A stretch of DNA of 64,000 nt from an uncultured Rhodopila sp. (GTDB taxonomy: Bacteria; Pseudomonadota; Alphaproteobacteria; Acetobacterales; Acetobacteraceae): the NCBI GenBank assembly GCA_903851415.1, contig CAINOE010000124.1, positions 1 through 64,000 on the forward strand, given 5' to 3'. Positions 14,925-19,757 of the stretch are shown here, piece by piece; within the stretch, counting starts at the first letter, position 1, and each line of letters begins with the position of its first letter. Under the pieces are notes generated by a model. The model was not told where the DNA came from. It saw nothing but the letters and a program-made list of their open reading frames with translations, and did no database searches. Both the position numbers and the translations under genes were made by a program.

Positions 14925-15719
14925 TCAGGCGCTCGGGGCGTTGTGCTTTGACGAGCCTTCTCCCGACAGCACGGGAAGGCCGAGCAACGAGGACAGCGGG
15001 GTCGGGTCGTGGCTCAGCGATGCCTTCGCGGTCTGGTTGTCGGACAGCACCCGCCAGCCAAACTTCTTCGACAACGGTGCGGGTTCATCGGAAATGATGC
15101 GCCAGCCAGCCCGCGACGACAGCGGCGCGGGATCGTCGGACAGCAGCTTCCAGCCGAGCAGGTTCGACAGCGGCGCGGGGTCGTGGCTTAGAGACGTCCG
15201 CGACGTCTGGCTGTCCGACAGCGTCCGCCAGCCCAGCCAGGATGACAATGGCGTTGGATCGTCGAGCAGCACCCGCCAGCCGAACTTTGAAGACAGCGGC
15301 GTTGGATCGTGCGAAAGCACCTTCCAGCCGGCTGCGGAGGACAATGGAGCCGCCGAGTCCGTTGAGCTTGCTGAAGCTTTCGGCGCGTTCGGCCCGCGCT
15401 CGACGGTATCTGGAACGTCCGTGATATCGGTCTCGACCGGGCCGAATGTGTCGAGGATTTCGGCAGCCTTGGCAGCCTTGCCGAATGAGGGAAGAACTGT
15501 AACGACGGATTTGCCGCGGCTGACCGCTTCGGCGTAAACCTTTGCCCGGGCGGATGATATCCCGCCCCTCGTGAGAGCGCTTACGGTCGCCTCGGTGTCA
15601 TGGCCATTCGGGGTGACGATGTTGATGTGCTCGGGCGCGAAGCTGTAGCTCTTGAGCTCTCTGGCGGCGGTTTCAGCTTTCTCCGGGGAGTCGTAGATAC
15701 GGCTGACAGTCACAGGCAT
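14925..15719 (-). CDS. YflT-like stress-domain protein with 16-residue DPxPLSSxxGWxxLSD repeats (paralog A)
   Basis: A 264-residue soluble protein; ATG 15719 is where similarity to its two paralogs begins. Residues 1-100 (MPVTVSRIYDSPEKAETAAR, later KVYAEAVSRGKSVVTV and AAEILDTFGPVETD) resemble the YflT/general stress protein 17M domain. Residues 122-252 hold seven copies of a repeat with core PLSSxxGWxxL, starting at 125, 141, 157, 183, 199, 215 and 241. Spacings are 16, 16, 26, 16, 16, 26, so a 58-residue unit made of three repeats plus a ten-residue DSQTSRTSLS-like insert is itself duplicated. No signal peptide or membrane helix. Function unknown; a stress role is only inferred. It is monocistronic and convergent with ppx. 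Confidence 0.82.
   Translation of the reverse strand: MPVTVSRIYDSPEKAETAARELKSYSFAPEHINIVTPNGHDTEATVSALTRGGISSARAKVYAEAVSRGKSVVTVLPSFGKAAKAAEILDTFGPVETDITDVPDTVERGPNAPKASASSTDSAAPLSSAAGWKVLSHDPTPLSSKFGWRVLLDDPTPLSSWLGWRTLSDSQTSRTSLSHDPAPLSNLLGWKLLSDDPAPLSSRAGWRIISDEPAPLSKKFGWRVLSDNQTAKASLSHDPTPLSSLLGLPVLSGEGSSKHNAPSA
14964..15356 (-). repeat. Coding tandem repeats of 48 bp inside a 174-bp super-repeat
   Basis: This is the DNA encoding residues 122-252 of paralog A. Each 16-residue unit is 48 bp. Three units plus a 30-bp insert form a 174-bp block that occurs twice, followed by a third partial block. Units differ by several bases, so the duplication is not recent or has been diversified, but the 58-codon register is exact. 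Confidence 0.8.
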
Positions 15720-16123
15720 TGCACGTCTCCGTTCACGGTTGGAATTACCGACGTGATGTAAACGCGCCCCGCGATTTCGCGCCGGGTGGTGGCGAGAATG
15801 TGAAATTTGGTGGAGCTTGTATGCCTTGCGCAAGGAATAGCCGATCGCGCACGAAGCCGTATTCCTGTCGGCGCCAGGTTGTTAATGATACGGACGTCTA
15901 CAAACGGCTGGAGTCGGTTCCGCGGCCAAAGATCAAGAAGCTTCCGGGGCCAGCGGTGGCCTTCGGCGGCCGATCAATCCTTGTCCCGGGTCAGTAGGCC
16001 GAGACCGACAAGAGCGGCGTCTATGCAGTGGCGCTTTCGCAGCGGACGCAGCTTCAAGGCGGAGGGTGATTGCCACCGCTCCGCCTATTGCCCGATTCCG
16101 ATCCGCTTTCAGGCGGAAACGCT
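15720..16123. other. 404-bp spacer between paralogs A and B
   Basis: No credible gene on either strand. It must contain the promoter of paralog A (reading left). Close to the stop of paralog B, TCCGC and GCGGA arms at 16102-16117 could form a short 5-bp stem with a 6-base loop, a weak terminator candidate. I see no convincing sigma-70 or general-stress (GGAAC-N18-CGTT) promoter. Confidence 0.5.
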
Positions 16124-16429
16124 TTACGACTTGGACAGCACCGGCCAGCCGAGTTTCGACGACAGCCAGGTCGGGTCGTCGATCAGCAGCTTCCAGTTGT
16201 ATTTGCTGGAAAGCGGCGTCGGGTCGTCGGACAGCAGCTTCCAACCGAACTGCTTCGAAGCCGGGGTCGCGACGTCGGACAGCAGCTTCCAACCGAACAG
16301 CTTGGAGGCCGGGAACGAGTCGTTGGCAAGCAGCGACCAGCCGAACTTCTTCGACAGGCCTAACCGGTCTTCCGACAGCAACGGCCATTTGAAGTAGTTG
16401 GACACCGGATGGGGATCGTCCAGGAGCTT
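16124..16429 (-). repeat. Six coding tandem repeats of 48 bp
   Basis: DNA for residues 119-219 of paralog B. The unit is 48 bp without inserts or deletions across six copies, the cleanest array of the three paralogs. Confidence 0.8.
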
Positions 16430-16783
16430 CGCCTTGGGGCCGGTGGAGGTGAACGGCGACGCAGTCTCCGCATCCTCCACAACGAGCTCATCGCCGTCGG
16501 TCGGGCTGAAGCTGTTGAGTATCTGGGCGGCCTCGCCGGCCTTGCCGAACGACGGGCGAACGGCGACGAGCGATGCGCCGCGGCCAATGGTCTCAGCATA
16601 CGCCTTGGCGTTGCTGGCCGGCACGCCGAACGCCGTGATCGCGGCGACGACAGCGTCGGCGGTTTTGCCCTCGCTGCTGACGAGGGTGATCTGGTCGTCG
16701 GAGAAGTAGCTGCTTTTCAGTTTTGTTACCGCACCCTTCGCATTCTGAGGGGTGTCGTATATCCGGGTTGTGATTACGGTCAT
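16124..16783 (-). CDS. YflT-like stress-domain protein with 16-residue FGWKLLSD repeats (paralog B)
   Basis: A 219-residue protein starting at ATG 16783 (MTVITTRIYDTPQNAKGAVT). The N-terminal domain (1-100) aligns with paralogs A and C: KAYAETIGRGASLVAVRPSF and AAQILNSFSP are equivalent to the YflT-family YAExxRRGxxLVxV and AAxIL segments. Residues 119-219 are six repeats with exact 16-residue spacing, cores beginning at 125, 141, 157, 173, 189 and 205, consensus DPTPLSSKFGWKLLSD; each repeat carries one Trp. Cysteine-free, no membrane helix. The first repeat starts at the same residue number as in paralog A. Function unknown. It stands alone, with 404 and 318 bp spacers on either side. Confidence 0.82.
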   Translation of the reverse strand: MTVITTRIYDTPQNAKGAVTKLKSSYFSDDQITLVSSEGKTADAVVAAITAFGVPASNAKAYAETIGRGASLVAVRPSFGKAGEAAQILNSFSPTDGDELVVEDAETASPFTSTGPKAKLLDDPHPVSNYFKWPLLSEDRLGLSKKFGWSLLANDSFPASKLFGWKLLSDVATPASKQFGWKLLSDDPTPLSSKYNWKLLIDDPTWLSSKLGWPVLSKS

Positions 16784-17101
16784 TGATCCGCACTTCCGTG
16801 AAAGGGGGCAGAACATTGCTAACCCATTACCCGCCCGGCTTCAACCCACTATGTCCACTTTGGTTGACGTATTTGATGCGTGACACATCGGCGGAGCGGA
16901 ACCAGGGCCATCAAGCCACAAAGACCACGCAACCTCCTGCCCGGCGTCGGATCGCCCGCCTCTCGGCTCGCGCTCAAACGGCCGCCGTCAACGATCGTGC
17001 CGGACGGCACGGCTGCGGCTGGCTGCCGCGGCAACCGGAGCACTGAACAACGCGCAGGCCGGTCGCTCTGCCGAAAACGCCACTCGCCCCGTACCGCCCA
17101 C
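16784..17101. other. 318-bp spacer between paralogs B and C
   Basis: No credible gene. The half next to 16784 must hold the promoter of paralog B (reading left) and is less GC-rich than its surroundings. No clear promoter boxes or operator can be named. Confidence 0.5.
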
Positions 17102-17599
17102 CTACCACCGCAGGAATTTGCTCTTCACCAGCGTCGGGATGCCCAGCAAAGAGGACAAGAGGGTATTGCCCGTCAGCGTCGGCAGGCCGGCAAGGCCGGA
17201 AAGCGATGTGGTATCCTTCGTCAGAGTCGGGATGTGCAACGCCGAGGACAGCGGCGTGGCCTGCGGCCGCAACCAGCCCATGTCGAAGAGCGCCGACAAC
17301 GATGCCTTGTCGCTCAACAGCAGCTTGATATGCAGCACGGAGGAGAGCCGTGCCTTTGCGTCGATCAGGACCGGCAGGCCGATCAACGCCGAAAACGCCG
17401 GAGTCCCTTTGATGAGGGCCGGGATACCCAACACGTTCGACGCGTTCAGGCTCTCCGGAATGCGCAATGCAGAAAACACGGTTCTGCCCCGCTCAAACAG
17501 GATGGGTATACCCAGCACGGCGGACAGCGTTGCGGTGTCGTCCAGCAACAGCGGCAGAGCGAGAAGCGACGATGCCGGCGTGGCGTCGTCCCATTGCCG
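17102..17599 (-). repeat. About ten diverged coding repeats, 48-bp period
   Basis: DNA for residues 118-282 of paralog C. The period matches that of the two neighbours although the consensus is different, so the register is kept while sequence has drifted. Confidence 0.7.
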
Positions 17600-17950
17600 C
17601 AACGGCTTGTATTCCTTGGGAGGGACGCCGGTTTCGATTGGATCGTAATTATCAAGGATCGCAGTGGCACGGCCGGCGGTGCCGAACGGGGCGCGGACCG
17701 TGACCAACGTCGCGCCGCGGGCGATACTCAGGGCATAAATGGCAGCCTCGGCCCTGGGGATGAATCCGGCCGCCACCGCGCCCACGATCTCATTGAATTC
17801 GGCCGCCGCCGCGTTGGCCCCTGTCTTGTAGCCGCCCAAGTAGGACACGACGGTGATATCCGCGTCCTCAAAGCGATACGTTCTGAGTTCGTTAACCGCC
17901 GCCACGGCATTTTCCTGGCTGCCGTAGACCCGCGTGATAATGTCGGCCAT
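17102..17950 (-). CDS. YflT-like stress-domain protein with 16-residue LSxxLGIPxL repeats (paralog C)
   Basis: A 282-residue protein from ATG 17950 (MADIITRVYGSQENAVAAVN). The N-terminal domain (about 1-110, with YALSIARGATLVTVRAPFG and ATAILDNYDPIETG) is the same as in A and B but has an Ala-rich insert around 45-62. Residues 118-282 carry about ten repeats whose conserved position (Pro of LGIP, or its replacement) falls at 133, 149, 165, 177, 193, 209, 225, 241, 257 and 272, so a 16-residue period with one 12 and one 15. Here the repeat is LSSxLGIPxLxxDxT, with the Trp of A and B replaced by Ile-Pro. No signal peptide. Function unknown. Confidence 0.82.
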   Translation of the reverse strand: MADIITRVYGSQENAVAAVNELRTYRFEDADITVVSYLGGYKTGANAAAAEFNEIVGAVAAGFIPRAEAAIYALSIARGATLVTVRAPFGTAGRATAILDNYDPIETGVPPKEYKPLRQWDDATPASSLLALPLLLDDTATLSAVLGIPILFERGRTVFSALRIPESLNASNVLGIPALIKGTPAFSALIGLPVLIDAKARLSSVLHIKLLLSDKASLSALFDMGWLRPQATPLSSALHIPTLTKDTTSLSGLAGLPTLTGNTLLSSLLGIPTLVKSKFLRW

Positions 17951-18043: not shown

Positions 18044-18065
18044 GGTGTCATCTTCGGTGGACACC
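18044..18065 (-). terminator. Hairpin at the end of the SDR gene
   Basis: GGTGTC (18044-18049) pairs with GACACC (18060-18065) around a 10-base loop, directly after the SDR stop on the reverse strand. No T run, so it is only a weak candidate. Confidence 0.3.
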
Positions 18066-19110: not shown

Positions 19111-19377
19111 ATGCCTCACGACGACTACCCGCTCCCGGAGAAGGTCGGCGTGCGGGAATTCCGGGAAAACATGACCGGGTTTCTGCGTCAGGCTCGCCAG
19201 GGGACTTCGTTCTTGATCACCTCGCACGATGAAGTGGTGGCTGAAATCCGACCGCCCGCACAGGCGCAGCGCTCGCCGCGCCGGCCCGGGGCGTTGCGCG
19301 GCAAGATCCGCATGGCGGCCGATTTCGACACTCTGCCGGCTGATGTCCTGGCCGCGATGGAGGGCGAGGGGGAGTGA
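19111..19377 (+). CDS. Phd/YefM-type antitoxin
   Basis: An 88-residue protein of the prevent-host-death family: VGVREFRENMTGFLRQARQG forms the DNA-binding N-terminal fold, followed by SFLITSHDEVVAEIRP. The C-terminal tail (about 45-88) is the part expected to wrap the toxin. It should neutralise the downstream PIN-domain toxin and repress their shared promoter. The last four bases overlap the toxin start (GTGA), the classical arrangement of a type II toxin-antitoxin operon. Confidence 0.88.
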   Translation: MPHDDYPLPEKVGVREFRENMTGFLRQARQGTSFLITSHDEVVAEIRPPAQAQRSPRRPGALRGKIRMAADFDTLPADVLAAMEGEGE

Positions 19378-19757
19378 AGCTCCTGCTCGACACCCACGCC
19401 TTGATCTGGTGGCTGTCGGACGATGACCGGATTGGCCCGCAGGCGCGGGCGCTGATCGCCGATCCGGGAAACGATGTTTTGGTCAGCGTGGTGTCGCTGT
19501 GGGAGATCGTCGTAAAGGTGCGTGTCGGCAAATTGGATTCCGACATCCGCGAGGTTATCGGTGCCTGTGACAAGGGCGGCTTCACCTCGCTGGATGTGCG
19601 CCCGCACCACTTGAAGCTGCTGGCGACGCTGCCGACGCACCACCGGGATCCATTCGATCATTTGCTGATCGCGCAAGCGATCGCCGAGGATGCCACGTTC
19701 GTGACCGACGACCGGCACGCCGGCAGGTACCCGGTGCGCGCGGTGCCTTGCGAGTGA
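19374..19757 (+). CDS. PIN-domain toxin (VapC-like ribonuclease)
   Basis: A 127-residue PIN-domain protein starting with GTG at 19374. Acidic residues expected to bind Mg2+ or Mn2+ are present: Asp6 in LLDTHALIWW, Glu44 in SLWEIVVK, Asp92 and Asp95 in HHRDPFDHLLIAQA, and Asp112 or Asp113. HRDPFDRLLIAQA-like motifs are typical of the PIN subfamily paired with Phd-type antitoxins. All residues look intact, so the toxin is probably active. The RNA target is not predictable. Coupled to the preceding antitoxin by a 4-base overlap. Confidence 0.9.
   Translation: MKLLLDTHALIWWLSDDDRIGPQARALIADPGNDVLVSVVSLWEIVVKVRVGKLDSDIREVIGACDKGGFTSLDVRPHHLKLLATLPTHHRDPFDHLLIAQAIAEDATFVTDDRHAGRYPVRAVPCE

Follow-up and report, generated by a model that had tools for sequence, protein, structure and literature searches.

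Three adjacent genes, called A, B and C here, in a 64,000-nucleotide stretch of DNA from an uncultured Rhodopila sp. (contig CAINOE010000124.1; "the window" refers to the whole stretch) probably encode long, gamma-like accessory polypeptides of the light-harvesting complex 2 (LH2) antenna. LH2 is the textbook antenna of two small polypeptides. A third LH2 polypeptide, gamma, was seen in structures in 2022 (PMC9618040). The trio belongs to a family with a 16-residue period that lies beside, and co-occurs with, genes for light-harvesting alpha polypeptides (LH-alpha) and PucC, and that in Rhodopseudomonas adjoins gamma and shares repeat units with it. The genomic evidence argues strongly for an LH2 accessory role and moderately for a gamma-like mechanism.

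A search of 200 Acetobacteraceae genomes with protein B alone found array-bearing relatives in eight other genomes. The matches spanned both the N-terminal domain and the array (E = 3.7e-35 in G043 and 2.7e-30 in G154, among others); the same search also hit YflT-like proteins weakly, in the N-domain. At these eight loci a PucC-type gene adjoined the family gene, and LH-alpha preceded PucC wherever the contig was long enough. A profile of 13 sequences (A2), which matches the trio by construction because the trio is included, identified as carriers 17 of 397 Acetobacteraceae genomes (E ≤ 1e-15) and, besides the window's own, 8 of 289 genomes of the class, in seven other families (E ≤ 1e-12). 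At E ≤ 0.001, A2 matched 67 of the 200 genomes; the 58 weak ones (best 54 bits) were left out as carriers, and a unit scan of 43 such weak-match loci found no 16-residue array.

In 22 of the 25 carrier genomes, the family gene and a gene for LH-alpha and/or PucC lie on one retrieved stretch, at most ~4 kb apart. LH-alpha was present in 20 of these 22, and the contigs of the other two end there. Strong matches to the PUCC profile were found in all 25 carriers, and reaction-centre genes (PF00124) in 23; the two misses, G004 and G494, are fragmented assemblies that hold PucC. Three or more repeat units were called in 23 of the 25 carriers, 20 of these 23 being linked. The gene order was alpha-PucC-repeat in the 14 linked Acetobacteraceae (alpha unseen in two cut contigs); the eight other genomes showed alpha-repeat-PucC in six cases and a divergent repeat gene in two. 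Similarity and gene order suggest that the LH-alpha/PucC loci are LH2 (puc) operons in each carrier, and we take the alpha sequences to be of the LH2 kind. At one locus (L036:6945-9960, G043) pucC is followed by four copies of the N-domain with its array, and a single 434-residue protein contains two of these copies. A metagenome-assembled genome (MAG) labelled Rhodobacteraceae encodes a 105-residue stand-alone array with three called canonical units and no N-domain, divergent from puc (L156:4742-5056, minus strand); this is a second short form. Three genomes (G043, G128 and G383) have four PF00124 matches each, apparently two reaction-centre L/M sets.

Carriage of the family followed puc-type PucC. 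In the 200-genome sample, all nine carriers (the window's genome included) were among the 13 genomes with puc-type PucC, and none was among the other 187 (P = 6e-13, Fisher test; 9e-12 without the window's genome). The same test against reaction-centre genes, present in 67 of the 200 genomes, gave 8e-4 (8 of 9 carriers). A genome was scored as having puc-type PucC if it had two or more matches to the puc-type PucC of the window's genome, or one of at least 70% identity.

The association also held in the reverse direction. Among 80 PucC loci fetched irrespective of the repeat gene (three PucC rows left out, one added), 29 had a family gene in flanks of 6 kb (profile E ≤ 1e-10): none of the 34 labelled betaproteobacteria and 29 of the 46 others. 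Absences are upper bounds here because contig ends shorten some loci, and the names are record labels, some of them odd. The family-bearing loci include Roseiarcus, Rhodopseudomonas, Hoeflea, Elioraea and Rhodophyticola, as well as loci labelled Granulosicoccus, Chromatiaceae, Halieaceae and Lysobacteraceae. Three or more units were called in 24 of the 29. Three LH-alpha/PucC contigs (L157, L143 and L166) are labelled Rickettsia typhi or Asaia bogorensis, labels that look wrong. In a plasmid collection, protein B found one weak Microvirga match (E = 6e-3) and the L138 member found none.

A first-pass annotation, made from the window's letters alone, had described three same-strand neighbours with a shared N-terminal domain and 16-residue arrays, and our data bear this out. 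The N-terminal ~100 residues of B and C were 43% and 41% identical to those of A. Autocorrelation of the C-terminal regions was maximal at lag 16 (1.33, 2.15 and 0.69 BLOSUM62 per residue for A, B and C), above the highest value in 500 shuffles (0.03, 0.07 and 0.08; lags 4-39). Called units start at residues 125, 141, 157, 183, 199, 215 and 241 in A; at 126, 142, 158, 174, 190 and 206 in B; and at 125, 141, 169, 185, 201, 217, 233, 249 and 264 in C. These are essentially the positions annotated before, and the one extra position in C (Pro 165) is a unit that the profile did not call. The period had been called strict, which is slightly too strong: lag 16 recurs in all three proteins, with two off-period steps of 26 residues in A and one each of 28 and 15 in C. 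Only the B array, among the three, was also reported as a tandem repeat at the DNA level, with a 48-bp period. As first described, two consensus types, GWKLL (A and B) and LGIPxL (C), occupy one register.

Across 293 family units, the core columns were G at -2 (74%), P at 0 (50%) and L at +1 (38%) and +2 (87%); position 0 in most A and B units is K or R, not P. The dominant step was 16 residues (180 counts), followed by 26 (19 counts), and 44 of 56 members had 5-9 called units. Serine occupied core position -6 in 22 of 22 called window units and position -3 in none, the unit profile having been seeded with a requirement for Ser or Thr at -6. With a core pattern that made no such requirement at -6 and excluded Ser at -3, serine was found at -6 in 19 of 19 window cores, in 82% of 222 family cores and in 79% of the 170 outside the window's genus. 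No Pfam or NCBIfam model exceeded its cut-off in the 11 members scanned (the trio and eight diverse relatives), and for the trio no NCBIfam model came close; the repeats had been thought to belong to no named family, and we rejected their assignment to a known one in these collections. We also rejected the idea that the repeats mimic the LH2-alpha N-terminus, which has a similar-looking VGLPL motif, as the mean score was reached by 172 of 300 shuffles.

The ratio of nonsynonymous to synonymous substitution rates (dN/dS) was low between the window and its close relative G395, where the gene A orthologue is 87% identical. Values for the N-domain and the array were 0.10 and 0.15 in A, 0.20 and 0.15 in B, and 0.05 and 0.21 in C. 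Values of 0.05-0.21 indicate that the trio are real, constrained genes, and the 0.15-0.21 in the arrays agrees with the constraint first proposed for the repeats.

The structural report (PMC9618040) describes gamma of Rps. palustris as an extended ribbon, without helix or sheet, that lies outside the LH2 ring near the cytoplasmic side, covers six of nine alpha/beta pairs and is part of purified LH2. Serines of its six repeats ligate six extra bacteriochlorophylls, and the discoverers' BLASTp placed gamma in Rhodopseudomonas only (PMC9618040). We observed that the gamma unit EYKGHSGHPLILKQEG is 16 residues long with a G-x-P-L core. The gamma chain 7zcu_S matched the family proteins of two genomes, R. 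rhenobacensis (E = 6.5e-21) and a MAG labelled R. palustris (E = 1.3e-28), both proteins being encoded downstream of pucC. A gamma gene begins 9 bases (R. rhenobacensis) and 13 bases (MAG) past the family-gene stop codon, and these gamma genes were 61% and 84% identical to gamma. From this similarity and position, gamma appears to be a short paralogue in tandem with the long family protein. The long Rhodopseudomonas proteins combine gamma-type and canonical units in one array, in which successive cores are 16 residues apart and in some cases 13; gamma-type units stand at both array ends in R. rhenobacensis and in last place in the MAG. A natural bridge is an Acetobacteraceae member (L081:7899-8507) with one gamma-type unit (KGVSGAPLL) amid a canonical array. 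Its best match among 177,635 PDB sequences was 7zcu_S; the full-length sequence gave E = 0.013, in an alignment without gaps that matched core to core. A 31-member profile that includes Rhodopseudomonas found gamma at E = 3.6e-5, and a canonical-unit matrix picked the expected register on gamma.

Predicted structures were obtained for B and C. The N-domain was predicted confidently (block predicted local distance difference test, pLDDT, 91-98 for residues 1-90 of B and 81-97 for residues 1-110 of C), and the arrays were predicted at low confidence with no periodic fold (45-59 in B, 37-54 in C). The first-pass annotation had seen the repeats as a solenoid or a binding scaffold and had named structure prediction as a check. 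At block pLDDT 37-59 the B and C arrays argue against a self-standing solenoid, which we rejected; a binding scaffold is the part of that proposal that probably stands. The low predicted order fits an extended ribbon that would need its partner, as reported for LH2 gamma. A fold search with the B model gave no PDB match at E ≤ 1e-3; its weak matches were chain D of alternative complex III (E = 0.07), PII/GlnK and NDP kinases. The N-domain may serve as an anchor for a partner, PucC for example, or may hold the chain in the cytoplasm.

Several observations weigh against the LH2 reading and its gamma link. The PUCC profile also matched 9 of 14 control genomes, so bare PUCC presence says little and it is strength and place that count. 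The three unlinked carriers of the 25 all belong to the window's genus (its own genome and two congeners), and in them the trio lies away from the puc genes; LH-alpha and puc-type PucC occur elsewhere in the window's genome. Two or fewer units were called in 2 of the 25 genome members and in 5 of the 29 family-bearing PucC loci (L109, L110, L115, L117 and L138). The cut for puc-type PucC was set after scores were known. The L081 member was picked for its test after the motif had been seen (1 of 56 members), and single stretches of it gave E = 6.3 and 24. A 29-member profile without the two Rhodopseudomonas rows did not find gamma at E = 10, and the canonical-unit matrix scored negative on gamma, a score reached by 961 of 5000 column-permuted controls. 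A PDB profile search with A2 gave no credible match and did not list gamma, and a PDB search with the L110 member gave no match. The ligand serine of gamma stands at core -3 (6 of 6), and the family serine at -6, three residues upstream. The long proteins also keep an N-domain that is absent from gamma. Because the bridge-free profile and matrix fail and the serine is offset, our claim is one of kinship through bridging proteins and not of membership in LH2 gamma proper, and the gamma link hangs on a few such proteins.

If the trio are gamma-like accessory polypeptides, the N-terminal domain would be a separate folded module and the C-terminal array an extended ribbon that follows the outer rim of the LH2 ring on its cytoplasmic side, with one 16-residue unit per alpha/beta pair. 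A unit-per-pair fit on the ring would explain why the period is held at 16 even as other consensus positions drift (GWKLL vs LGIPxL). The three paralogues, which have two types of unit and 7, 6 and 9 called units, would act on LH2 from the same genome's unlinked puc genes, and the conserved serine would be a candidate magnesium ligand or ring contact. We infer that the window proteins bind LH2, follow the ribbon path and carry extra bacteriochlorophyll, perhaps via this serine. A bolder version, to which we give somewhat less than even chances, holds that gamma is no peculiarity of Rhodopseudomonas but the shortest form in an ancient and widespread family of antenna ribbons in purple bacteria, and that each long-form unit seats an extra bacteriochlorophyll via its near-invariant serine on one alpha/beta pair. 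If so, up to a whole LH2 ring could be rimmed with added pigment by a chain bearing a folded cytoplasmic domain.

Other roles could account for parts of these data. The proteins could be cytoplasmic LH2 assembly factors, partners of PucC whose repeats hold nascent alpha/beta pairs and which are absent from the mature ring. The family gene adjoins pucC in many loci, the N-domain is confidently predicted to fold, and PMC4949548 describes PucC and LhaA as assembly factors located where the membrane invaginates. However, gamma, alone among the family-linked proteins in having a solved structure, is part of purified LH2 (PMC9618040), and we regard an assembly factor as rather unlikely. A multivalent linker, in which each repeat docks on a different ring and ties LH2 rings together or to other complexes, would suit the variable unit number, the inserts between units and the disorder of the arrays when modelled alone. 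Flexible linkers would not need the dominant 16-residue step, which is the step of gamma along one ring, and a linker is in our view improbable.

The least plausible of these roles is a general stress or polyphosphate-granule protein. Such a link had been raised as conceivable from the ppk-ppx neighbours, and the weak YflT resemblance would also fit it. The ppk-ppx adjacency is real in the window and recurs in two congeners: in both G395 and G383 the same trio is flanked by ppx on one side and by a gene for a short-chain dehydrogenase on the other. A distant Ppx/GppA-type gene also lies 2-3 kb off in Elioraea (L037, L078/L155 and L079/L172). However, no ppk relative was found in 51 puc-side family loci, the gene stands beside LH-alpha/PucC in 22 of 22 carrier genomes outside the window's genus, and all nine carriers among the 200 sampled genomes have puc-type PucC; the stress/polyphosphate link is therefore unsupported. 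The Elioraea genes (L037:5162-5665, L078/L155:4296-4829 and L079:4040-4573) are 31-32% identical to the window's PPX.

The features of the trio are collected in Table 1. A TGT-N12-ACA site lies upstream of gene C, in the same place in G395 and absent from G383. We take this motif to be PpsR/CrtJ-like, and the site is possibly one for a photosynthesis regulator. Such sites also occur in the puc region of the genome (L092:6341 and 7066), and a conserved block upstream of gene B contains near-matches in the three congeners. The window-wide count was 10, compared to 5.7 expected, and was reached by 5 of 100 shuffles, a weak excess. Photosynthesis regulation common to the trio and the puc region is possible. 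A PIN-domain gene (PF01850) at positions 19374-19757 of the window may encode the toxin in a small toxin-antitoxin pair.

Table 1. Positions of the trio, its domains and an upstream site in the window.
Feature	Position	Strand	Remarks
Gene A	14925..15719	minus	264 aa; N-domain and 7 called 16-aa units
Gene A N-terminal domain	15420..15719	minus	weak YflT resemblance
Gene A repeat array	14952..15347	minus	mostly PLSSxxGW[KR]xLSxDPT; unit profile
Gene B	16124..16783	minus	219 aa; N-domain and 6 called units
Gene B N-terminal domain	16484..16783	minus	predicted fold beta-alpha-beta-alpha-alpha-beta-alpha
Gene B repeat array	16127..16408	minus	unit profile; 48-bp DNA tandem repeat
Gene C	17102..17950	minus	282 aa; N-domain and 9 called units
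Gene C N-terminal domain	17621..17950	minus	
Gene C repeat array	17114..17578	minus	LSSxLGIPxL type; unit profile
TGT-N12-ACA site	18046..18063		starts 113 bases upstream of gene C

If the family is wider gamma kin, an LH2 component has gone unnoticed in many purple bacteria, and it could alter how many pigments the ring carries, how large it is or how it assembles. Repeat number would then be a readable measure of ring coverage. Cultured array carriers include Rhodopseudomonas rhenobacensis DSM 12706 (7 called units) and Roseiarcus fermentans DSM 24875 (4 called units). In the open-access literature, searched mostly as titles and abstract starts, we found no report of LH2 gamma kin outside Rhodopseudomonas, and none of the distribution described here.

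The N-terminal ~30-50 residues of the trio show weak similarity to YflT/general stress protein 17M (PF11181), the resemblance first annotated. All three matches miss the gathering threshold of 26.2 bits, with 14.6 bits for A (E = 0.049), 18 for B (E = 0.0041) and 13.7 for C (E = 0.091). In contrast to the trio, weak N-domain matches in other Acetobacteraceae had no called 16-residue units (0 of 43 loci). YflT-like proteins of Acetobacteraceae (L006, L014-L016 and L020) have a glycine-rich, zipper-like insert that splits the N-domain and no 16-residue arrays, and many N-domain matches among the 200 Acetobacteraceae resemble them. PucD and PucE of the Rhodobacter pucBACDE operon lie downstream of pucC, as do the profile matches in L110 and L138, but those two members have only 2 and 0 called units. 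Rhodobacter capsulatus PucE is a possible relative, as a lead only.

A contig labelled Rhodopila (L100) was 91% identical over 8.1 kb to the puc region of the window's genome, which on sequence appears close to Rhodopila. The LH1 gamma-like polypeptide of Rhodopila globiformis (PDB 7XXF) is likewise an antenna-ring accessory polypeptide. It has 22 residues and is integral in the membrane (PMC9640540), and is too short for an array of 16-residue units. The closest comparison is LH2 gamma (RPA1495; PDB 7ZCU, 7ZDI, 7ZE3 and 7ZE8). Gamma has 97 residues and no N-domain, whereas the trio proteins have 264, 219 and 282 residues with an N-domain of ~100 residues. The family and gamma share a 16-residue repeat with a G-x-P-L core and one conserved serine per repeat, and in two Rhodopseudomonas genomes the gamma gene directly follows that of a family member.

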